Source: Pseudomonadota bacterium (GTDB taxonomy: Bacteria > Chloroflexota > UBA5177). Taken from it: a stretch of DNA of 43,806 nucleotides. The stretch spans positions 1 through 43,806 of the forward strand of contig JAJPIP010000067.1 in assembly GCA_021324655.1 (NCBI GenBank), read 5' to 3'. This document shows, one piece after another, positions 1 to 18,204 of this stretch. The position numbers and the translations under genes were made by a program. Within the stretch, counting starts at the first letter, position 1; each line of letters opens with the position of its first letter. Under the pieces are notes generated by a model. The model was not told the origin of the DNA, ran no database searches, and worked only from the letters and a program-made list of their open reading frames with translations.

Positions 1-1683
1 CTCAGCCCGATCCGTGAGGGAGCGATCGCCCACATCCTCCATGCGCAACGGGAAGACGGCTCCTGGGCGTTGTACTGGGAAGGACCGGCGGACCTGAGCA
101 CCACGATCGAAGCCTACGTCGCGCTCAAGGTGCTGGGGCTCGATCCCGGGCGTCCCGAGATGGAAGGCGCGCTGCGCGTCATCCGCGGCAAGGGCGGCGT
201 CACGGCCGCCCGGGTCTTCACCAAGATCTGGCTCGCCCTTTTTGGGGCGTACCCCTGGCGCGGCGTTCCCAGTATGCCGCCCGAGCTGATCTACTTGCCG
301 TCCAGCGTCCCCTTCAATCTGTACGACTTCGCGTGTTGGGCCCGCGGTACCGTCGCTCCCCTCCTCATCGTTTTGACGGAGTGTCCGGTGCGTCCGCTGG
401 GCTGTACGGTGGACGAGCTTGTCCTTCCCGGCACGGAGGAGCAGTTGACGCGCGTCCCCGGATCCGGTCCCTTCTGGTGGCTCGACAAGCTACTCAAGCT
501 CTACGAGGCGCTCCCGGTCCAACCCCGCCGCCGTGCCGCGCGCCACCGCATCGCCGAGTGGATCGTGGAACACCAGGAGGCGGATGGGAGCTGGGGAGGC
601 ATACAGCCTCCCTGGGTGTATTCGCTGATCGCGCTCAACCTGCAAGGAATGAGCGTGGATCATCCCGTGATGCGGCGCGGCCTGGAAGGGATGGAAGGCT
701 TCGTCCTCTCCGATGAGGGCGGGTGGCGCTTCCAGGCGTGCATGTCACCGGTCTGGGACACGGCCTGGGCCCTGCTCGCCCTGCGCCGCGCCGACGTGCC
801 GCGCGATCATGACAGCGTGCGACGCGCCGTGCGATGGCTTCTCGACGAGCAGATCTCCTCCGGTGGCGATTGGCAGGTGCGCTGTGATGCACCGCCGGGC
901 GGCGGCTGGGCTTTTGAGTTTGAGAACGACCTCTACCCCGACATCGACGATACGGCGGTGGTCGTCCTGTCACTGCTGGAAGCCGGTGGACCGGAGATCG
1001 ACGGCGCGGTATCGGACGCGGTGCGCTGGGTGACCGCGATGCGGTCGTCGAACGGCGCGTGGGCTGCCTTCGACCGTGACAATACGCGCGAGTTGCTCTA
1101 CAGCATCCCCTTCGCGGACTTCGGCGCCCTGATTGACCCGCCTAGCGAGGACGTCACCGCGCACGTTCTCGAAATGCTGGCCCACACGTCCTGTCATAAC
1201 CGCGACCGTCTCATCGCCGACGGCCTCGCCTACCTGCGCCGTCTGCAGCGCCGCGACGGCGCCTGGTTCGGGCGCTGGGGCGTCAACTATATCTATGGGA
1301 CATGGTGTGTCGTATCGGCCCTCACGGCACTGCGCCAGGGTCTCGACATGGTGCCGTCAGCCCTGCGCTGGCTCCGTGCCAGGCAGAACGAGGACGGTGG
1401 CTGGGGTGAATCCTGTTACTCCTACAACGATCCCTCGCTGGCCGGCGTGGGGAGAAGCACGCCCTCACAGACCGCGTGGGCCGTTCTCTCGTTCCAGGCG
1501 GCCGGACAGGGTGACGATCCCGCCTGCCGGCGCGGGATCGGCTATCTCAAAGAAACCCAGTTCGGAGGCACCTGGGAGGAGCGGGAGTTTACAGGGACCG
1601 GCTTCCCGCGAGATTTCTACATCAACTATCACCTGTACCGGCACATCTTCCCGACGATGGCCCTGGCCGGGGACACGAGCTAA
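1..1683 (+). CDS. shc: Squalene-hopene cyclase, 5' end cut by window
   Basis: Cyclises squalene to hopene/hopanol, the committed step of hopanoid synthesis, on the membrane. The reading frame is open from base 1, and the residues before the first internal start (REDGSWALYWE) already look like SHC, so the true start lies upstream; about 560 residues are visible of the usual 620-650. The acid motif DxDD is present as DIDD at 940-951. QW-type repeats are visible (ADGSWGG, NGAWAAFD, RDGAWFGRWG, EDGGWGE). The TAA stop shares bases with the stop of the convergent membrane-protein gene. The HpnJ gene nearby supports a hopanoid role. The family assignment is firm; whether the product is hopene or a tetrahymanol-like variant cannot be read here. 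Confidence 0.93.
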   Translation, partial: LSPIREGAIAHILHAQREDGSWALYWEGPADLSTTIEAYVALKVLGLDPGRPEMEGALRVIRGKGGVTAARVFTKIWLALFGAYPWRGVPSMPPELIYLPSSVPFNLYDFACWARGTVAPLLIVLTECPVRPLGCTVDELVLPGTEEQLTRVPGSGPFWWLDKLLKLYEALPVQPRRRAARHRIAEWIVEHQEADGSWGGIQPPWVYSLIALNLQGMSVDHPVMRRGLEGMEGFVLSDEGGWRFQACMSPVWDTAWALLALRRADVPRDHDSVRRAVRWLLDEQISSGGDWQVRCDAPPGGGWAFEFENDLYPDIDDTAVVVLSLLEAGGPEIDGAVSDAVRWVTAMRSSNGAWAAFDRDNTRELLYSIPFADFGALIDPPSEDVTAHVLEMLAHTSCHNRDRLIADGLAYLRRLQRRDGAWFGRWGVNYIYGTWCVVSALTALRQGLDMVPSALRWLRARQNEDGGWGESCYSYNDPSLAGVGRSTPSQTAWAVLSFQAAGQGDDPACRRGIGYLKETQFGGTWEEREFTGTGFPRDFYINYHLYRHIFPTMALAGDTS

Positions 1684-2690
1684 CCGGCCGCGGCTGCTTC
1701 GTCGGATTGCTCGGTCTGGAGTTGTCTCGCGGCCACGGCCAGGGCAATGAGCGCGATCAGCACAGTTGATCCGGTGCCGAGAAGGCGAAGGCTCAGCACG
1801 GCCAGGGCAGCCGCCGGGCGCGGAATACCGAGCGCCATCAGGGCACCGAGACCGGTGATCTCGGTGATGCCGATTTCCGTGGGGATCGGCACCAGAATGA
1901 CCGCCAACACCATCACGGCATACACGCTCATCACACGAAGGAAGCTGAGGTGGATTCCGTCGGCGTTCATGATGGCGTCCAGCCAGATCACATAGATGAG
2001 CATGTAGACCGCCGTGGGCGCCAGATTCCAGAGGGTGCGTAGCCGCAACAACTCTTCCACTGCCATGAAGAACTGGTCGCTGGCACCAATGAGCTTCTGG
2101 CGCCAGGGCGCGAGACGCGGGGTCATGTGCTCGACGCGCCAGTTGATGAGAGCCCAGAGAAGGATCAACACGACGACCCAGGCGCCGACGATGCCGAGAA
2201 CCACCCACCGCAACCACGGCACGCCGGGCAGTCCCAGGACGAGAGCAACGACCACGGCCAGCAGACTCTCGAGGCCGAGCATCGCCGTGGTGGCGGTGGT
2301 CGAACGAATGGTGGCGCGCAGGCTGAGATGCTGCATGCGCTCCAGCAGATAGTTCTGAACGTAGACACCGGCCGGGAGACTCTTTGTCACCTCTCCTCCG
2401 GCGAACGCCACGATCAACTGACGCGGTGTGACATGGATACCCAATTGCTCGAGCAGGTCGCGCCAGACCAGAATGCGTGCCCCCAGGTAGGGGAAGGTGA
2501 GAAGAAGCACGAGCCACCAGGTCTCACCGACAATCGTCGCGAACTCGGCGCTGCTGTGACGGGATACACCGAGGTAGGCGACGTATGCCAGGGTTCCCAG
2601 CCCGACCAGCAGCGGGATCACGATGCTGAGGTCGATTCGCTCGCGGAACCGTCGCCATCGGGTCCGGTTCTGTCCGCCCGCGTCGCTCAC
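1680..2690 (-). CDS. Flippase-like integral membrane protein (LPG synthase TM / UPF0104 family)
   Basis: 336 residues with about eight hydrophobic segments, starting after a basic N-terminus (RTRWRRFRERIDLS). It resembles the LPG_synthase_TM/UPF0104 family (PF03706), which includes the transmembrane half of MprF and the hopanoid-associated protein HpnL. It lacks the soluble aminoacyl-transferase domain of MprF, so a lipid transport or flipping role is more likely than lysinylation. The GTG start overlaps the TGA of the upstream glycosyltransferase by 4 bp, indicating translational coupling. Its TAG overlaps the shc stop tail to tail. A role in moving a lipid-linked glycan or hopanoid is inference from context. 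Confidence 0.72.
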   Translation of the reverse strand: MSDAGGQNRTRWRRFRERIDLSIVIPLLVGLGTLAYVAYLGVSRHSSAEFATIVGETWWLVLLLTFPYLGARILVWRDLLEQLGIHVTPRQLIVAFAGGEVTKSLPAGVYVQNYLLERMQHLSLRATIRSTTATTAMLGLESLLAVVVALVLGLPGVPWLRWVVLGIVGAWVVVLILLWALINWRVEHMTPRLAPWRQKLIGASDQFFMAVEELLRLRTLWNLAPTAVYMLIYVIWLDAIMNADGIHLSFLRVMSVYAVMVLAVILVPIPTEIGITEITGLGALMALGIPRPAAALAVLSLRLLGTGSTVLIALIALAVAARQLQTEQSDEAAAAG

Positions 2691-3556
2691 GGCACCAACT
2701 CCCGGATGGCAGCCAGGACGGAATCGACCGTCGCCTCACGGCGGTGGACGAGGCGATAGGGAACGTTCATCGGCGCCGGCCAGTCGATAGAGCGGGGCAA
2801 CCACCAGGGAACGATGACAAACGGCCTCGCCCGCGCCGCGGCAATGAACCACAGTCCACTCTCGCCGCTGATAAGACCGGCCGCGCGGTCGATAATCCCC
2901 GCCACCTGACGGATTGGCAATCCCAGCATGGGCTGGGTCTCCGGGATAGCGGCTTGACCGTGAGCCCCCAGTGTCACTGTCTGGTAGCCGGCACGGTGAA
3001 GGGCCGCGGTCAACGCCGTCCAATGGTTGAGTGGCCACCCCTTGACGGCGCTCCACGCCCGAGTAAGAGCACGCGATCGGTACTGTCCGATATGTGGCGC
3101 CAGAACAACATACGGCCGGTCAAGGGTATCGGCGATGGCGAAGTCCTCCTCTCCAAGCTCGAGGACGGGGCGGCAGCGCTGCAACCGGCCGAGTCTCAAG
3201 TAGGTCGCCAGCCATTGGCCGCGCGGTTGACACCAGAGGTCACGGTAATAGAGCCAGGGTAACCGATAGCGCCAGTCGCGAACCATAGAGACACCGATCG
3301 GAATCGGCCGCAGATCGTGTACCACTGCGTGCGAGTGGGTGGGTGCCGCCGTCAGGAGATCATCGACATCCGGATTCCGCTCCAGAATGGCCAGCAGCGC
3401 CTGACGGGGATGCACCACAGTGAGGCGCTGCGGTTTCGCCATGCAACGGTATTGATGGAGCACGGCAGTCAACCAGAGAAGATCCCCGAGATGGTAGTCG
3501 GCTCCCAGGATGAAGGTGTGAGAACCGCGGCTTTGGGGATGCCGCGTCGCGTCCAC
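2687..3556 (-). CDS. Glycosyltransferase family 9 (heptosyltransferase-like)
   Basis: 289 residues with the GT9 pattern: an N-terminal GDLLWLTAVL segment (equivalent to GDxLLTxP of heptosyltransferases, about residue 25) and a C-terminal ESGLWFIAAA segment matching the family's SGxxHLAAA nucleotide-sugar region, followed by a hydrophobic strand. Starts at a GTG. It probably transfers a sugar to a lipid or polysaccharide acceptor at the cytoplasmic face. It is coupled to the downstream flippase-like gene by a 4-bp overlap and is divergent from hpnJ across 62 bp. GT9 in an organism probably without LPS suggests another envelope glycan or glycolipid acceptor; the acceptor is unknown. Confidence 0.7.
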   Translation of the reverse strand: MDATRHPQSRGSHTFILGADYHLGDLLWLTAVLHQYRCMAKPQRLTVVHPRQALLAILERNPDVDDLLTAAPTHSHAVVHDLRPIPIGVSMVRDWRYRLPWLYYRDLWCQPRGQWLATYLRLGRLQRCRPVLELGEEDFAIADTLDRPYVVLAPHIGQYRSRALTRAWSAVKGWPLNHWTALTAALHRAGYQTVTLGAHGQAAIPETQPMLGLPIRQVAGIIDRAAGLISGESGLWFIAAARARPFVIVPWWLPRSIDWPAPMNVPYRLVHRREATVDSVLAAIRELVP

Positions 3557-3618: not shown

Positions 3619-5043
3619 ATGAGGACGCTATTCCTGAACCCTCCGTCATTTGACGGATTCGACGGAGGAGCCGGGTCGCGCTACCAGGCACGACGAGAGG
3701 TCAAGTCGTTCTGGTACCCAACCTGGCTCGCGCAGCCGGCCGCGCTCATCCCGGGCAGCAAGCTCATCGATGCGCCGCCCCATGGCATCACCGCTGAGCA
3801 GGCTCTGGCCACGGCGGAACATTTCGACCTGGTCGTCATCCACACCAGCACCCCCTCACTGCGCAACGACATCCGCTTTGTGGCGGCGCTCAAGGCACGC
3901 CGGCCGGAGACCATGGTGGGGTTCATCGGGGCGCATGCCGCCGTCTTGCCGGAGGAAACGCTGCGCGCCTGCCCGTCACTCGACTTCGTCGCCCGCAAAG
4001 AATTCGACTTTACGATCAAAGAGATCGCCGAAGGCCGGGCGGTGAGCGAGACGCCGGGCGTCAGCTATTGGGACCGTGACAAGAACGAGATCGCGCACAC
4101 CCCGGAGCGGGAACTCCTGATGGATATGGACCAGCTCCCCTTCGTGACCCCGGTGTACAAGCGGGACCTCGATATCGAGAAATATTACATCGGCTATCTC
4201 AAACACCCGTATGTCTCGCTCTACACGGGCCGCGGCTGCTTCTCACGCTGCATCTTTTGCCTGTGGCCGCAGACCATCGGCGGGCATCGCTACCGGGTGC
4301 GCAGCCCGGAGCATGTGGTCGAGGAGATGAAACTGGCCGCGTCGCTCTTCCCCAACGTCAGAGAGTTCTTCTTCGACGACGACACGTTTACCGACAACCG
4401 CCCGCGCGCCGAGGAAATCGCCCGCCGCCTCAAACCACTCGGGCTCACCTGGTCCTGCAATGCCAAGGCCAACGTGCCGTACGAGACGCTCAAAGTGATG
4501 CGCGAGTGCGGTTTGCGGCTCCTCCTCGTGGGCTTTGAGTCCGGCAGCCAGGAGATCCTGAACAATATCCGGAAGGGAATTCGCGTCGATCGGGCGCGCG
4601 AGTTCGTGCGCAATTGCAAGCAGCTGGGAATCAAGATCCACGGCACGTTCATCCTCGGCCTGCCCGGAGAAACGCGGGAGACGATGCAACAGACGATGGA
4701 CTACGCCCGCGAGCTGGATGTCGACACGATTCAGGTCTCCCTGGCCGCACCGTATCCCGGCACCGAGCTCTATGCCCGTGCCCTCGCCAACGGGTGGCTG
4801 AAGCAGGAGGGGCTGGTCGACGAGCACGGTCTACAGGAAGCGAGCCTCGAGTACCCCGACCTCAGCAAGGATGAGATCTTCCGCGCGGTGGGAACCTTCT
4901 ACCGCAGCTTCTATATGCGGCCGCGTCCCATTCTCCGCATCGTGAGCGAGATGGCCCGGGATCGCGAGGAAGCCCAACGGCGCCTACGGGAGGGAGCCGA
5001 ATTCCTCCGGTTCTTCTCCGAGCGCCGGCACGCTGTGTCCTGA
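3619..5043 (+). CDS. hpnJ: Hopanoid-associated radical SAM / B12-binding protein, HpnJ-like
   Basis: 474 residues. An N-terminal B12-binding-like domain (about 1-180) precedes a radical SAM core with CxxxCxxC cysteines C207, C211 and C214 (RGCFSRCIFC), then the segments LVGFESGSQEILNNIRKGI and HGTFILGLPGET. The N-terminus PPSFDGFDGGAGSRYQ matches the HpnJ family as I know it. HpnJ proteins are needed for the cyclitol ether head group of bacteriohopanepolyols, probably by ring contraction of a sugar-linked intermediate. The length matches the family. Its neighbour shc fits this role. The last 60 bp overlap the convergent YkoP-like gene. Function in this organism is inferred from the family. 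Confidence 0.82.
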   Translation: MRTLFLNPPSFDGFDGGAGSRYQARREVKSFWYPTWLAQPAALIPGSKLIDAPPHGITAEQALATAEHFDLVVIHTSTPSLRNDIRFVAALKARRPETMVGFIGAHAAVLPEETLRACPSLDFVARKEFDFTIKEIAEGRAVSETPGVSYWDRDKNEIAHTPERELLMDMDQLPFVTPVYKRDLDIEKYYIGYLKHPYVSLYTGRGCFSRCIFCLWPQTIGGHRYRVRSPEHVVEEMKLAASLFPNVREFFFDDDTFTDNRPRAEEIARRLKPLGLTWSCNAKANVPYETLKVMRECGLRLLLVGFESGSQEILNNIRKGIRVDRAREFVRNCKQLGIKIHGTFILGLPGETRETMQQTMDYARELDVDTIQVSLAAPYPGTELYARALANGWLKQEGLVDEHGLQEASLEYPDLSKDEIFRAVGTFYRSFYMRPRPILRIVSEMARDREEAQRRLREGAEFLRFFSERRHAVS

Positions 5044-12445: not shown

Positions 12446-12471
12446 AGAGGGGTCGCTTACGCGACCCCTCT
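12446..12471 (-). terminator. Hairpin terminator of the VEGHS-repeat gene
   Basis: An 11-bp perfect inverted repeat (arm AGAGGGGTCGC, 4-base loop) 43 bp beyond the stop at 12515. On the minus strand it is followed by TCTCGTCTTT, a weak U-rich tail. It separates this gene from nusB. Confidence 0.6.
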
Positions 12472-12514: not shown

Positions 12515-12901
12515 CTATTGGTTCTTGAGGGAATGTCCCTCGACGTCGTCGTCCTCATCCTCGGGATTGCGGCCGTGCTTCAGCTTGTTCTCCTGCAGCA
12601 CGTCCTTAATGGCGTTTTGGACCGTTCCTGACCTAATAGAGTGCCCCTCGACGTCGTCGTCCTCGTCGGGGCTGAACCCGCCGCCGTGGCGAACGCGACC
12701 CTCATTGTGGCGGATCTTGTTCTGGGTGTCCTGACTACGCAGGGAGTGTCCCTCGACGTCGTCCTCGTCGGAGCTATATCCGCCGCCGTGGCGGACACGG
12801 CCCTCGCCGTGCTTGATCTTGTTTTGCGCGTCCTGGTCGCGCAGGGAGTGGCCTTCGACTTCATCGTCCTCGATCGGCAACTGGGTGGTTTCGTCGCTCA
12901 T
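12515..12901 (-). CDS. Acidic, histidine-rich VEGHS-repeat protein, unknown function
   Basis: 128 residues from the ATG at 12901, which has GAGGAG six bases upstream; an in-frame ATG at 12928 lacks one. It contains four copies of an acidic run plus VEGHS(L/I) at residues 15, 49, 84 and 120 (spacing 34-36). The first two units continue as QDxQNKIxHxEGRVRHGGG, the third diverges, and the fourth ends the protein. Nine histidines, no cysteine, no membrane segment or signal peptide. Repeats are also visible in the DNA. I do not recognise a family; disorder, metal binding or a multi-core peptide precursor are possible, none proven. A CRP-like site lies about 85 bp upstream, and its own terminator follows. 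Confidence 0.75.
   Translation of the reverse strand: MSDETTQLPIEDDEVEGHSLRDQDAQNKIKHGEGRVRHGGGYSSDEDDVEGHSLRSQDTQNKIRHNEGRVRHGGGFSPDEDDDVEGHSIRSGTVQNAIKDVLQENKLKHGRNPEDEDDDVEGHSLKNQ
12551..12868 (-). repeat. Four tandem coding repeats (VEGHS units)
   Basis: In-frame degenerate tandem repeats of about 102-108 bp inside the VEGHS-repeat gene. The conserved core on the plus strand reads like GTCCCTCGACGTCGTC. Units 1 and 2 are most alike; units 3 and 4 are diverged or truncated. Confidence 0.75.
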
Positions 12902-12983
12902 CTCATACTCCTCAATTCGGTGAATCACTACTGCTTGGGCTTGCCTTACATCGCCACTCTACGTCCGTCCGCCCCTCCCTGAC

Positions 12984-12999
12984 TATGAACTGGTTCACA
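12984..12999 (-). promoter_or_regulatory. Candidate CRP-type operator
   Basis: Minus-strand TGTGA-ACCAGT-TCATA matches 9 of 10 half-site bases of the TGTGA-N6-TCACA CRP consensus. It sits just after the stop of the CRP-family gene and about 85 bp before the VEGHS-repeat start. The neighbouring regulator has R185, E186 and K190 in its recognition helix, like R180, E181 and R185 of E. coli CRP, which fits this half-site. Confidence 0.5.
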
Positions 13000-13001
13000 T
13001 T

Positions 13002-13676
13002 TCACACGGGATCAAGCACATATTCCGCAAGTCGATCGCGATCGAGGATTTGCACGCTGCCGCGGTCAAGCCGGATCACGCCATCGTCCACCAGGCTGTT
13101 GAGGTGCTTGTTGATGCTCTCGCGTGTCGCGCCGACCATCGATGCCAGATGGTGCTGCGTAATCTGGACCGTTTCCGAATGCCCCTGATCGGCCAGAAAC
13201 AGCAGGCGCCGAGTAAGCCGGCTCCGCACGTCGAGGAGCGCCAGCTCGTCGACCAGATCCGTACACCGCCGCAACATCCGCACCACCATCTGCAGGCATG
13301 CCATCACGGCGCCGGGATGCGCCCCCAGAAAGGCCTGGAACGTCGCGCGCGATAGGAACAGGAGGCGCGCCGGAGTCAGAGCAGTCGCCGTCGCGGAGCG
13401 TGGCTCGTCGTCAAAGAGCGACAACTCGCCGAAATACTCTCCGGACTGCTCCATCGTCAGCATGATCTCGCCGCCGTCCGGTCCTTCCCGGCTGATCCCG
13501 ACCTGCCCCTCGAGAATGATGTAGAGGCCGTCACCGATCACTCCGCGGGAAAAGATGACCTGGTTCCGGGCATAGAAGCGCGGCTGCATGGCATAGGCGA
13601 GTTCCATCCGCTCGCCGTCGTCCAGATCGCGGAAGAGGGCGACCTCGCGCAGCGCGTTCAGGACCGCCGCGTCCAT
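13002..13676 (-). CDS. CRP/FNR family transcriptional regulator
   Basis: 224 residues from the ATG at 13676. An N-terminal cyclic-nucleotide-binding domain (about 15-120) has YFGELSLFDDEPRSATA, which keeps the glutamate and RSA arginine/serine of a cAMP pocket. A long dimer helix follows, then a C-terminal winged helix with HHLASMVGATRESINKHLNSL. Its recognition helix (R185, E186, K190) is CRP-like. No cysteines for an Fe-S cluster, so a CRP type is likelier than FNR. No ribosome site is clear; a GTG at 13691 is an alternative. It is divergent from an MFS-cNMP fusion and a CRP-like site lies just downstream before the VEGHS-repeat gene. Confidence 0.88.
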   Translation of the reverse strand: MDAAVLNALREVALFRDLDDGERMELAYAMQPRFYARNQVIFSRGVIGDGLYIILEGQVGISREGPDGGEIMLTMEQSGEYFGELSLFDDEPRSATATALTPARLLFLSRATFQAFLGAHPGAVMACLQMVVRMLRRCTDLVDELALLDVRSRLTRRLLFLADQGHSETVQITQHHLASMVGATRESINKHLNSLVDDGVIRLDRGSVQILDRDRLAEYVLDPV

Positions 13677-13756
13677 GCCGAAAAGTAGCACAGCCGAATG
13701 ACAATGGAAGAGCGGCCCGTCGCGTGTACCATGACTGCAGCGTCCGGAGGGGAGAT

Positions 13757-15415
13757 ATGAGGGAGATCCTCGCCGTCTTGCGAAACCGCAATATGGCGTC
13801 GCTGCTGACTGGCCGTCTCATCTCGAACAGCGGCGACTGGATCTATTCCGTTGCCGTCTCGGTCGCGATCTACCAGTACAGCCGGCACCAGGCGTACTAT
13901 ATCGGGCTATTCTGGATCATCCGGCTGATCCCCAGCCTCACGTTCGGTCCTTTTGCCGGCGTCGTCGCGACGCGTCTCGGGTACCGGACGACGATGATCT
14001 CCACCGATGTCGGGCGAGCGCTACTCGTTGCGCTCCTGGCGGTTTTGCTGCGACCCGATACCTGGGCCGCGGTCTTCCCGATCGGTTTCCTGATCGTTGC
14101 CCTCGGCCGCTTCTTCGCTCCGTCGAGCGTTGGCCTGATCCCCTCGGTCGTCTCCTCGCCGGACGAGCGCATCGCGGCGAATGCGGCGGTCATGCAGGTC
14201 TCGTCGCTCGCCATCGTCCTCGGCAGCGCCTTCGGTGGTCTGGCCATCCCGCTGGGCTTCACCACCCTCCTCGTTCTGGACGCCGTTAGCTTCCTCATCT
14301 CCGCGGCTTCACTCGCCGTGATCAGGCCACGAGCCGCCGGCACGCCGTCGGGAAAGAGCGCGGCAGCGACGAAGGACGAGGAAGAAGAAATCGGCACCGG
14401 CGTGCTCGCCGGAGTGCGCCTCCTGCGCGGCCGCCCGCTCCTCCTGTTCGCGGTGGCCGTCATGATTCTGCCCGAATTTGCGTCCGGCGCCGCCGTCGTC
14501 TGGTTCATTCCGATGTCGGAGCAGGTTCTCCATCTCGGCGGGAACGGCGTTGGCTACCTCTACGGCGCCCTCGGCATCGGCGAGCTCATCGGGGGCTTCG
14601 CGGCCGCTCTGATCGGAACCACCGTCCGGCTCCCGTTGCTGCTCGCCTTGAGTGTCGGCGCACTCGGGGTGGTCTACGTGCTCTTCGGGCTCGCGACCAT
14701 ACCACTTCTCGCCCTCTTCTTCATCCTGCTGGCGGGTCTCTTCGAGGCGGTGGAGCTGACTGTGTATGAAACGCTCATTCAGCAGGCCGTCCCCGAACAG
14801 CTGATCGCCCACGCCTTCGGAACTCTCGACTCCTTCCTGACCACCATCATGCTGATCGGCAACCTGGTGAGTGGGTTCCTGCTGCTGGTCGTCGGCGTCG
14901 GTTATGCGCTTGCCGGGCTGGGCGCCTTAATTCTCGCCGGGGGCGCCGGCGGCTGGTGGTATCTCCGCGCCGAGAGCCGGGGTAAGCCGCGCGCGGCCAC
15001 CCTGGCCCAGGTCCCGGCCTTCTCTCACGTTCCCCCGGCGATGCGGGAGTGGGCCGTACGGCGCATGATCCGGGCGGAGTACCCAGCCGGAGCGACCGTG
15101 ATCCGGCAGGGAGCCGAGGGGGACATGTTCTATACCATCGCGGACGGCCAGGCGGAAGCGGAGGTGGACGGACACGTGGAGCGCACCCTCCAGCCCGGCG
15201 ATTTCTTCGGCGAGATTGCCCTCCTCCACCGTGTCCCGCGCACCGCGACCGTCCGCGCCGTTACCCCTCTCGTCGTCTGGGGCCTCAGCCGCGAGGACTT
15301 TGATCAGCTGCGCGAGCAGGAATCGACGTTCCGCGATTCGCTGCTGGAGATCGCCGCCTCACGCCTGGCATCGCAGGCGGGACGGACAACGATTCTGCAA
15401 CCGGGTGGCTCGTGA
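13757..15415 (+). CDS. MFS transporter fused to C-terminal cyclic-nucleotide-binding domain
   Basis: 552 residues. An MFS_3/EntS-type transporter of about 12 hydrophobic segments (residues about 1-410; TGRLISNSGDWIYSVAV at the start) is joined to a cNMP-binding domain (about 420-540) with the signature GDFFGEIALLHRVPRTATV. The domain suggests transport gated or tuned by a cyclic nucleotide; the substrate is unknown. ATG at 13757 has GGAGGGGAG just upstream, so the in-frame codon at 13724 was not used. It is divergent from the CRP-family gene across 80 bp with no clear shared operator. The 169 bp after the stop hold nothing recognised. Confidence 0.87.
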   Translation: MREILAVLRNRNMASLLTGRLISNSGDWIYSVAVSVAIYQYSRHQAYYIGLFWIIRLIPSLTFGPFAGVVATRLGYRTTMISTDVGRALLVALLAVLLRPDTWAAVFPIGFLIVALGRFFAPSSVGLIPSVVSSPDERIAANAAVMQVSSLAIVLGSAFGGLAIPLGFTTLLVLDAVSFLISAASLAVIRPRAAGTPSGKSAAATKDEEEEIGTGVLAGVRLLRGRPLLLFAVAVMILPEFASGAAVVWFIPMSEQVLHLGGNGVGYLYGALGIGELIGGFAAALIGTTVRLPLLLALSVGALGVVYVLFGLATIPLLALFFILLAGLFEAVELTVYETLIQQAVPEQLIAHAFGTLDSFLTTIMLIGNLVSGFLLLVVGVGYALAGLGALILAGGAGGWWYLRAESRGKPRAATLAQVPAFSHVPPAMREWAVRRMIRAEYPAGATVIRQGAEGDMFYTIADGQAEAEVDGHVERTLQPGDFFGEIALLHRVPRTATVRAVTPLVVWGLSREDFDQLREQESTFRDSLLEIAASRLASQAGRTTILQPGGS

Positions 15416-15584
15416 TGCCGTTGGTCAACGGATAGCGCACGGCGGTCGCGCCCGGCAGGTCGGGCGGCACCACGGAGCGCCGAGGCGTGGTGTGCCACCT
15501 CGCCCAGCGCGAGACCGTCAGGGCGGGCGCACGTAGGACCAGGCAGGCGGCCGGCCGGAGCCGTCACGACGAGGGCCGGGATCG

Positions 15585-16505
15585 TTACGACGCCCGCGTG
15601 CGGCGACGGGCCAGGACGCGGTTGATCTCGGCGCCGACGAGCACGATGTAGGACGACCAATACAGATAGATCAGAAGCACGATCAGGCCGGTGAACCAGC
15701 CGTAGAGCGGGCTTACCAGGAAACGCCCGAAGTGGTTCAGCACAAAGGCGAAGACCGCGGAAAAGATCAGCCAGGCGGCGGAGGCGATGGTCGCGCCGGG
15801 CGCAAGCGCGCGCGCTGGTTGCCGCCGCGCGGGCGCGTACTTGTAGGTCAGGGCAAATGCCAGCCACGTAAAGGTGAGCAAGACCAACCACTGGAGGATG
15901 GTGACTGCCGGACCGATCACGGCGCTGCGCCCGAAGGCGACGGCAACGACCGCGGCAATATCTGCCCCCGCCACGATCAAAATCAGCGCGCCCAGCCAGA
16001 GAAGCGCTGTGGCCAGCGACAGCATCATTGAGACGGCAACCTGGATCGGCAGCGAGCGCTCATCCTTTACCTCGTCCATCACCGACATCGCCTCCATCAC
16101 CGCCCGCGAGGCAGCAGACACCGCCCACAGCGATCCGCACGCCAGCAACACACTGAAGAAGACGTTGTGGGGAAGGAGAGCAATGACGACCTGCAGGATG
16201 CGGTGCACGGTGGCGGCGGCAGAGACCGGTAAGGCTCGCACCGCCGTCGAGACCAGGGCCGAGATCTGCGACGTCGAGCGCACCAGCCTGAGCAACGAGA
16301 GAAGAAAAAGCAGAAAGGGAAAGATGGAGAGGAACGCGTTGTACGTGATATTGCCGGCATACGCGTCGATATGGTCCTCGAAGGACTCACGGAAGACCTG
16401 CCTCGCCAGTTCGAACAGACTGAGGCGGGGGGCGACCTGGATGGCTCCCAGCCGGCGTGCGACGCCTGCCATCCGATCACTCACGCTCTCGCCGGCCGCA
16501 TTCAT
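15585..16505 (-). CDS. YihY/BrkB family inner membrane protein
   Basis: 306 residues from the ATG at 16505 (a TTG at 16526 is also open). Family markers are ITYNAFLSIFPFLLFLLSLL near residue 55, SLWAVSAASRAVMEAM, and the C-terminal SPLYGWFTGLIVLLIYLYWSSYIVLVGAEIN. Six membrane segments. Formerly called ribonuclease BN, these are membrane proteins of unknown transport role. It follows the GAF gene after 53 bp and could be last in that minus-strand run. No strong ribosome site is visible. Confidence 0.85.
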   Translation of the reverse strand: MNAAGESVSDRMAGVARRLGAIQVAPRLSLFELARQVFRESFEDHIDAYAGNITYNAFLSIFPFLLFLLSLLRLVRSTSQISALVSTAVRALPVSAAATVHRILQVVIALLPHNVFFSVLLACGSLWAVSAASRAVMEAMSVMDEVKDERSLPIQVAVSMMLSLATALLWLGALILIVAGADIAAVVAVAFGRSAVIGPAVTILQWLVLLTFTWLAFALTYKYAPARRQPARALAPGATIASAAWLIFSAVFAFVLNHFGRFLVSPLYGWFTGLIVLLIYLYWSSYIVLVGAEINRVLARRRTRAS

Positions 16506-16558
16506 ATGCCTAGCGGCGGGATGCAACGATCATGCCACAGCCGGGCCGCACTCCGGTG

Positions 16559-17377
16559 CTAGGTATTGCGCGCGACGCTCTCCAGAATATCGAGCGCGAG
16601 GCGACGTGCCCGCTCACCCCTCCGGCCGATCGTATGCACCAGCCGCGCCAGCGCCAGCGTCTGCTCGGACGGCTCGGCATCGCCGGCGAGAGCTCGTCCG
16701 ATCAGGCCCGCGAGTCCGGTGTCGCCGCGCCCCTCCGCGACCTCGGCCAGCGTGTCCAGCAGCATCCGCCCCACATTGGTCACCATCTGGGCCTGTCCGA
16801 CGGCAATCGCGATCGGATGAGCGAAGAGCCCGAGCATCTCCATGTCATCCAGGCCGAATGATGTGTTGTCGTTTTTGTCCAGCACCTCGATGACCCCCTC
16901 GACGTCGTCGCCAAGCAGCAGAGGGGCAGCCATGATCGACCGCGGCACGTAGCCGGTGGACTGGGCGAATCCCGAGGCGAAGCGGGGGTCACGCCGGACG
17001 TCGGAGACCGCGATCGGCTCGCCCGTCATCGCCACCCAACCGGCGATTCCCTGATGGGAGGGAAAGCGCAGGCCGAGCACCGACTTATCGGTCGCGGCGA
17101 CGAAGACAAGCTCGTTCGTTTCGTGATCGAGGATCAGCACCGAAGCGGCGGCGGCATCAAAGAGGCGACATGCGGCTTCGATAATACCGAGCAGGAGAGC
17201 CCGGTAGGACGAGCTTCCGATTGTTTCCCCCGCAACGGTCGAGAGCTGTAAGAGGTCACGCAACGGCGCCGCCCCGTTCGCCCCGGCGAGCTCCTCACGT
17301 AGCTGCCGGATCTCGACTGCCTGGTCGGCCACCGTCGCCCGCGCTGCCACCAATTCGCGCTGCAAATCTTCTGTCAC
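16559..17377 (-). CDS. GAF domain sensor protein
   Basis: 272 residues. An N-terminal coiled coil (about 1-35, LQRELVAARATVADQAVEIRQLREEL), a GAF domain (about 40-190; LVFVAATDKSVLGLRFPSHQGIAGWV, APLLLGDDVEGVIEVLDK) and an alpha-helical C-terminus. There is no kinase, phosphatase or cyclase domain, so it probably binds a ligand and passes the signal to a partner. The GTG start overlaps the S8 peptidase TGA by 4 bp, with GGAGG 7 bases upstream, so the two are coupled. The ligand is unknown. Confidence 0.83.
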   Translation of the reverse strand: MTEDLQRELVAARATVADQAVEIRQLREELAGANGAAPLRDLLQLSTVAGETIGSSSYRALLLGIIEAACRLFDAAAASVLILDHETNELVFVAATDKSVLGLRFPSHQGIAGWVAMTGEPIAVSDVRRDPRFASGFAQSTGYVPRSIMAAPLLLGDDVEGVIEVLDKNDNTSFGLDDMEMLGLFAHPIAIAVGQAQMVTNVGRMLLDTLAEVAEGRGDTGLAGLIGRALAGDAEPSEQTLALARLVHTIGRRGERARRLALDILESVARNT

Positions 17378-18204
17378 GGACGACCTCCCAACGCCTCGCG
17401 CACGTTCTTCGAGGTGTAATACAGAACCGTCTTGAGGTGAAATGGGGCAAGGCGGTGCTTGCCCTGGATCAGAGCCGCGATCCCGACGATGTGCGGCGTG
17501 GCGTAGCTATTGCCCGTTCCCACGGACGTCGTTTTGCCGGCCCAGGCCAGCTCGAGGTCGACGCCTGGAGCGGTGAACTCGACCGGCGGGTTGGGGTTGT
17601 AATAGAAGGTGTACGGATCGGGCTCGGCGTGACTCGCCACCGAGATGACCGAGGCGAAGAGCCACGGGTAGCTATTCACCGGCATATTGTTCGCCGCGGC
17701 GACAATCACCGTTCCCCGGAAATACGCCTCATCCGCGAGATCGTGCAGGGCGACGACATGTTCATACTTGCGCGTGCTGAGGCTCAGGTTGATGACATCC
17801 ATGCCGTTTTCCACCGCCCAGCGAACACCCGCGACGAGGGCATCCCCGCCGCCCTTCAGATTCTGACCGAGTACCCGGGCACTATAGATCTCCGCCTCGG
17901 GCGCCAGGGAATGTATGATGCCGGCGCAGGCGGTCCCGTGGCCAAAGAGATCCTCATGTGGCTCCTCTCTCACCACCACACCATCCGGCGACCGCTGGAC
18001 AACGACCCCGCCCTTGACGGCACCCTCCAGGGCCGGGTGATCCGCTTCCACCCCCGAATCCACGATGCAGACTTTGACCCCCTTCCCGGTGCTGCCGCCC
18101 CACGCCCACTCGGGCGTAATGTCCCGCCAGGCAACCGGAGAGATATCCGGCTGATCCTCGGGGCGGGTCGGCCAGCTGAAAGCGGGAAGTACCGGCTCTT
18201 CCAT
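17374..18204 (-). CDS. Subtilisin-like S8 serine peptidase, no signal peptide
   Basis: 276 residues with the catalytic triad D49 (VCIVDSGVEADHP), H89 (GHGTACAGI) and S233 (GNSYATPHIVG), and the oxyanion asparagine at about N172. No signal peptide, no propeptide and no anchor, so it resembles a cytoplasmic subtilisin; the short N-terminus leaves little room for a propeptide. It begins after accC (11 bp gap) and ends overlapping the GAF gene by 4 bp. The link with GAF suggests ligand-dependent proteolysis or a cyclisation-type role, but no RiPP partner genes are present. Substrate unknown. Confidence 0.86.
   Translation of the reverse strand: MEEPVLPAFSWPTRPEDQPDISPVAWRDITPEWAWGGSTGKGVKVCIVDSGVEADHPALEGAVKGGVVVQRSPDGVVVREEPHEDLFGHGTACAGIIHSLAPEAEIYSARVLGQNLKGGGDALVAGVRWAVENGMDVINLSLSTRKYEHVVALHDLADEAYFRGTVIVAAANNMPVNSYPWLFASVISVASHAEPDPYTFYYNPNPPVEFTAPGVDLELAWAGKTTSVGTGNSYATPHIVGIAALIQGKHRLAPFHLKTVLYYTSKNVREALGGRP

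Follow-up and report, generated by a model that had tools for sequence, protein, structure and literature searches.

A VEGHS-repeat protein as a proposed multi-cassette peptide precursor within a conserved GAF-S8 subtilase gene set

The VEGHS-repeat gene of the window (the whole stretch of 43,806 nucleotides that was analyzed) stands in a conserved set with a protease, an exporter, and regulators, and therefore appears to be part of a little-known peptide-making system rather than an orphan; apparently this conserved peptide-processing set has so far gone undescribed. We consider it probable that the repeat protein is a disordered multi-cassette precursor that the S8 subtilase and its GAF partner cut at each [D/E]VEGH, that the MFS-cNMP protein exports the resulting peptides, and that the process is under small-molecule control. 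The original prediction had ranked a precursor as the weakest of the possible roles because no modifying enzyme was seen nearby; it is now the best supported, since genes for a dedicated subtilase, its GAF partner, an exporter, and a regulator lie no more than 6 kb away and have been kept together with the repeat protein in other genomes, and since RiPP-type leaders beside orthologous subtilases end in the same motif. The sequence and its repeats, the conserved gene set, the co-occurrence of motif and protease, and the motif at the ends of RiPP-type leaders come directly from the analysis.

The repeat gene and its neighbors are listed in Table 1. Coordinates and length had been given exactly in the original prediction, whereas the coding strand is the minus strand, the plus-strand frame being interrupted by a stop (ORF analysis). 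Translation bears out the four VEGHS(L/I) units at intervals of 34–36 residues (starting at residues 15, 49, 84, and 120; spacing 34, 35, and 36), the count of nine His and no Cys, and the occurrence of QNKI and of EGRVRHGGG in two units each; the third unit has QNAI as the counterpart of QNKI, and the net charge of the protein is −16. When the protein was shuffled 100,000 times, VEGH reached at most two copies, and that in a single shuffle, against four in the real protein. The gene does have its own ribosome site and terminator, with GAGGAG 5' of the ATG and a hairpin past the stop (folding z-score −5.5); the description “free-standing” applies to transcription at most, as the gene is one member of a conserved set of five.

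Table 1. Features of the VEGHS-repeat gene and of the associated genes in the window.
Feature	Position	Strand	Basis
VEGHS-repeat protein, 128 aa, proposed multi-cassette peptide precursor	12515..12901	-	ORF listing and relatives
Unit 1 motif EVEGH (aa 14-18)	12848..12862	-	Translation
Unit 2 motif DVEGH (aa 48-52)	12746..12760	-	Translation
Unit 3 motif DVEGH (aa 83-87)	12641..12655	-	Translation
Unit 4 motif DVEGH (aa 119-123), then 5-residue tail SLKNQ	12533..12547	-	Translation
Shine-Dalgarno-like GAGGAG	12908..12913	-	Just 5' of repeat-gene ATG
Terminator-like hairpin, 11 bp, TCTCGTCTTT tail	12446..12471	-	3' of repeat-gene stop
Crp/FNR-type regulator, cNMP_binding and HTH_Crp_2, upstream of repeat gene on same strand	13002..13691	-	Pfam
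MFS exporter with fused C-terminal cNMP-binding domain	13724..15415	+	Pfam; fusion recurs in relatives
GAF-domain protein, start/stop overlap with S8 gene	16559..17377	-	Pfam
S8 subtilase, 276 aa, proposed processing protease	17374..18204	-	Pfam, alignment, model

Searches of Pfam, NCBIfam (no family even at E up to 10), PDB, phage, and plasmid sequences gave no match for the repeat protein, and an Rfam search of the repeat-gene region gave no RNA family. Disorder prediction had been proposed for the protein, and its structure model is unstructured (pLDDT 50.7 and pTM 0.12, from a shallow 6-row alignment). The ORF is very probably translated, because a family of such ORFs is maintained across other genomes. 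Elsewhere in the window, a squalene-hopene cyclase-like gene (70-1683, plus strand) and a B12-binding radical SAM-like gene (3619-5043, plus strand), both judged from translation alone, probably belong to hopanoid biosynthesis and have no relation to the repeat protein.

Proteins with tandem DVEGH, DTEGH, DVAGH, or DVQGH are present in Chloroflexota and Actinomycetes. Two members of the family of the source genome (L002 and L003) encode similar repeat proteins with other spacers, and further repeat proteins were found in named Chloroflexi MAGs and in the actinobacterium Naasia. The spacers repeat inside each protein yet vary from genus to genus (RLKPESD in L002, HTHHGAPKH in L003, KLSATGDELSPEGA in L006/L008, and AARSGRIVE in Naasia), with no obvious core common to spacers across genera; what the relatives have in common is a run of acidic residues and [D/E]-[V/T]-x-G-H. 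Among 151 units, the frequencies within the motif are D 0.93, V/T 0.89, E 0.74, G 0.89, and H 0.89, the spacing is mostly 14–16 or 30–38 aa, and the arrays commonly stop 3–7 residues past the last His, the tails of some relatives being longer (12–42 residues). The array-end tails include SLKNQ, SSKLR, GAKRV, GYKRP, and VRFQP, and SLRDQ, SLRSQ, or SIRSG follow inner motifs.

In Naasia lichenicola YIM 131853, which has DVEGH arrays in L009 and L010, one 12-kb region of apparently identical gene content occurs on these two scaffolds, either as a true duplication or as an assembly artefact. A second type of small protein, encoded at L012, L011, L045, L048, L049, and L143, has one DVEGH or DTEGH and, after it, a basic helical tail that is conserved among these proteins (NPxL...ARxxDIxR...AKR..K). 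At L047 (6897-7562, plus strand), DVEGH occurs twice in a protein of ~200 aa that also has a hydrophobic segment; the S8 gene of that genome is on another contig, and the protein is a possible trans substrate.

The full set of repeat gene, Crp, MFS-cNMP, GAF, and S8 occupies positions 12515-18204 of the window. GAF and S8 overlap in the manner of coupled genes. Inspection of the neighbors of relatives, a check put forward with the original prediction, returned the same genes: the repeat gene is accompanied in nearly all cases by Crp, GAF, and S8, and usually by MFS-cNMP as well, some tandem loci being without Crp, MFS, or both. Crp, GAF, S8, and MFS are the only families common to 46 neighborhoods in an all-ORF comparison. 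Of 78 S8 loci, some of which were found via the DVEGH pattern itself, 75 have the GAF gene next to the S8 gene. Tandem ORFs (42 in all) were called at 35 of the 78, one of these 35 (L170) probably holding a chance ORF, whereas the same loci read in reverse (1.0 Mb) gave none. Of 34 S8 loci with tandem ORFs, 22 encode MFS-cNMP, a count lowered in part by contig ends that cut some loci, and Guanylate_cyc-domain (nucleotidyl cyclase) genes adjoin some loci. The open-access literature yielded no description of DVEGH and its variants, or of GAF/S8/RiPP combinations; GAF is unmentioned in an account of unclustered lanthipeptide proteases (PMC8960859). The conflict systems of PMC7159879 were also considered and are not the system seen here.

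The S8 protein of the window matches PF00082 (E 3.6e-27) with an intact Asp/His/Ser triad; D49, H89, and S233 of the triad, together with N172, are invariant in 18/18 aligned S8 sequences. Judged by eye, its N-terminus does not look like a signal peptide, and its model is a subtilisin fold of moderate quality (pLDDT 73). It scores below the NCBIfam cut-offs for the PatA/PatG family (TIGR03895; 20.4 bits, cut-off 421), for QhpE (NF049966; 107.6 bits, cut-off 165), and for mycosin. A profile that splits orthologues (mostly E < 1e-100) from other subtilases placed the family in 40 of 400 Chloroflexota genomes and, among 395 genomes from the class to which Naasia belongs, in 27. Among the 400 Chloroflexota genomes, this S8 family is encoded in 13 of the 16 with tandem DVEGH clusters versus 27 of the 384 others (Fisher p ~6e-12), a p-value that is optimistic because the genomes were treated as independent, which they are not; the three tandem-DVEGH genomes without S8 have contigs that are cut off or are incomplete. 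Matches to a single DVEGH pattern in the genome scan are mostly due to chance. Precursor type changes 3 times on the S8 tree, which partly mirrors host taxonomy, compared with a mean of 18.4 changes after shuffling (0/200 shuffles as low). A close relative of the source genome (G002:C44, L150) has a second GAF-S8 pair, which falls among the GY-type subtilases and near which no precursor was recognized.

In sister branches of the S8 family, the motif takes the form [DE]VxG[HY] or [DE]VxAH and stands where leader and core meet in RiPP-type peptides. In Chloroflexota f11, f18, f55, and f61, the GAF-S8 regions hold small peptides whose NHLP-like leaders (weak NHLP-related NCBIfam matches, under cut-off) end in EVSGY, DVAGY, DVQGY, or similar, with cores next that are often rich in Cys/Ser/Thr; RamC_N-kinase-LanC proteins at three such loci that were scanned have the layout of class III lanthionine synthetases. 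In Actinomycetes, the corresponding peptides match aroma_sacti_dom (NF045560) and end in EVQAH, DVMAH, or EVHAH. These were over cut-off in 11 of 395 genomes, every one of which also encodes this S8 (27/395 overall; p 1.6e-14, optimistic for the same reason), with peptide and S8 on a shared contig ~3–12 kb apart. Both V and H of [DE]VxxH are invariant in an alignment of nine leader peptides. Of 2,217 small ORFs in the vicinity of S8 genes, 110 contain the motif [DE][VT]x[GA][HY], against an average of 17 for permuted motifs, the top two of which (63 and 59 ORFs) overlap the real motif. A leader peptide with a single DVEGH was not found in the source genome; two members of its family have such peptides.

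Several individual loci hold further small peptides of these kinds. A 48-aa peptide (...DVVAHDAEEEEDPCLWFSGQCALYYADS) at L179:3172-3318 (minus strand) and L180:11203-11349 (plus strand) has DVVAH followed by a Cys-containing core; at L179 it is adjoined by genes for a radical SAM protein (1937-3130) and an MFS protein, and the locus is likely an unannotated sactipeptide-type cluster. Three paralogous leader peptides at L151:7855-8960 (minus strand) adjoin a GAF-S8 pair and have DVQGY or EVQGY before Tyr/Trp/Gly/Pro-rich cores. At L158:1672-2841 (plus strand), four tandem paralogous lanthipeptide-like precursors, with EVSGY before cores ending in CTITSL, precede, on the upstream side, a GAF-S8 pair and a gene of the RamC_N-kinase-LanC type. 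The 53-aa peptides at L190:504-665 and L191:739-900 (both minus strand; PEVEAHSVLDLQ) have a C-terminal PGNC(V/I)S core and adjoin aroma-sacti/S8 clusters, the L190 copy being without a family match.

Under the precursor reading, each [D/E]VEGH would be a processing tag that closes a cassette. Cuts after the tag His would be made by the cytosolic S8 subtilase, whose gene lies at a distance of 5 kb, together with its GAF partner: once in the RiPP-type peptides and four times in the VEGHS protein. From the latter, peptides of ~34–36 residues and a 5-residue tail would be released, for export by the MFS-cNMP protein. Through the Crp, GAF, and cNMP domains, a small molecule, perhaps a cyclic nucleotide, could control expression as well as cutting and export, and such cyclic-nucleotide control is suggested by these domains and by the Guanylate_cyc-domain genes beside some loci. 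Points that count against the precursor reading are the lack of a modifying enzyme conserved with the repeat type, spacers without an obvious core common to genera, and the tandem loci that miss Crp, MFS, or both. Cleavage, cut site, export, ligand, and product activity are what we infer for this system.

With respect to the RiPP class, the short ORF with its tandem [DE][VT]x[GA]H tags provides an encoded precursor with a recognition element, and a dedicated protease nearby is provided, by genetic linkage, in the predicted protease S8 (17374-18204). The original remark that no modifying enzyme is near holds beyond the window: none is common to the repeat-type loci (46 neighborhoods), which share Crp, GAF, S8, and MFS alone, and the source genome encodes no LanC-like and no SPASM protein. 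RiPP status is therefore unproven by the usual definition. A modifying enzyme of another kind could act from elsewhere, or the peptides produced may all be unmodified. As a tentative extension, which we think possible but doubtful, one GAF-controlled cytosolic subtilase would read [DE][VT]x[GA][HY] in tandem, lanthipeptide, and sactipeptide-like precursors alike, with the tandem peptides exported unmodified through a cyclic-nucleotide-gated MFS protein as a signal, under three layers of nucleotide sensing.

The same conserved gene set would also fit a docking or inhibitory array, in which the DVEGH repeats bind S8 or GAF and keep the protease off until a signal arrives, without any peptide product. 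An acidic and disordered protein would suit that role, and the single motif of other small and larger proteins, C-terminal or mid-protein, is placed as a docking tag would be. We nevertheless regard such an array as unlikely, in that the motif of the sister branches lies between leader and Cys/Ser/Thr-rich core, the usual place of a cut site, and agrees with published S8 cut-site patterns. That location also bears on the suggestion, made in the original prediction, that the protein is a histidine-rich metal binder or buffer: the conserved His sits in the tag and recurs in single copy at RiPP leader ends. Most relatives have no His in their spacers, so that the tag His alone is conserved, the exception being one relative (L003/L055) with spacers full of HTHHGAPKH; that relative, the nine His of the window protein, and the alternation of Asp/Glu with His are what speaks for metal binding, which is improbable in view also of the lack of any metal transporter or regulator among the conserved neighbors (46 neighborhoods).

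Finally, S8 might trim only the array tail, giving linear signal peptides of 5–6 residues (here SLKNQ) and leaving the remainder as a carrier. The many arrays that end shortly past the last His would agree with this, as would the SLRDQ, SLRSQ, or SIRSG after inner motifs; against it are the long tails of some arrays and the lack of a conserved receptor gene, and a short tail is perhaps just a partial last unit, all of which makes trimming of this kind very improbable.

On the precursor reading, an unannotated repeat protein becomes a testable precursor/protease pair. The GAF-S8 pair together with [DE][VT]x[GA][HY] also serves as a search key that finds precursors missed by profile libraries, many of them in Chloroflexota. 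If it is true that S8 cuts after the tag, the enzyme would be a portable leader/cassette peptidase for several RiPP classes. A peptide system in which cyclic nucleotides govern processing and export, as may be the case here, would be unusual.

Among known systems, ElxP is a cytoplasmic S8 protease with the tag (D/E-5)(L/V-4)X2(Q-1), PatA cleaves after G(L/V)E(A/P)S, and the tag of AmyP is (T/S/A)EVE (PMC10885120). The motif [D/E][V/T]x[G/A][H/Y] is a tag of this sort, its −1 residue being His or Tyr. The cyanobactin PatA/PatG system is similar in its repeated cassettes flanked by short tags and its S8 protease (here an activity that is predicted), and the PatA tag can be aligned with DVEGH over positions −4 to −2; however, the S8 of the window is far under the TIGR03895 cut-off, and its system has a GAF partner and cNMP domains instead, with no macrocyclase, cyclodehydratase, or AYDG-like second tag seen. 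To judge by tag pattern, ElxP is also close, as [DE][VT]x[GA]H is equal in length and in its first two positions and the S8 is cytoplasmic; the tag of this S8 family differs in having His or Tyr rather than Gln at −1, and the repeat type has a tandem array as precursor and no adjoining lanthipeptide synthetase. The aroma-sacti/StsA-related peptides (NF045560 and NF045559) have a leader domain that ends in [DE]VxAH or DVQGY, and all over-cut-off carriers in the Actinomycetes sample have the same S8 family; they consist of a single-copy helical leader and a short core, whereas the VEGHS protein is without such a leader and matches neither model. The NHLP-related lanthipeptide precursors, whose hosts we would guess from gene content to be Ktedonobacteria-like Chloroflexota, differ in adjoining class III synthetases (three loci), in having Tyr for His, and in carrying one core per peptide, and are similar in that [DE]VxGY marks their leader/core boundary and orthologous GAF-S8 pairs adjoin them.
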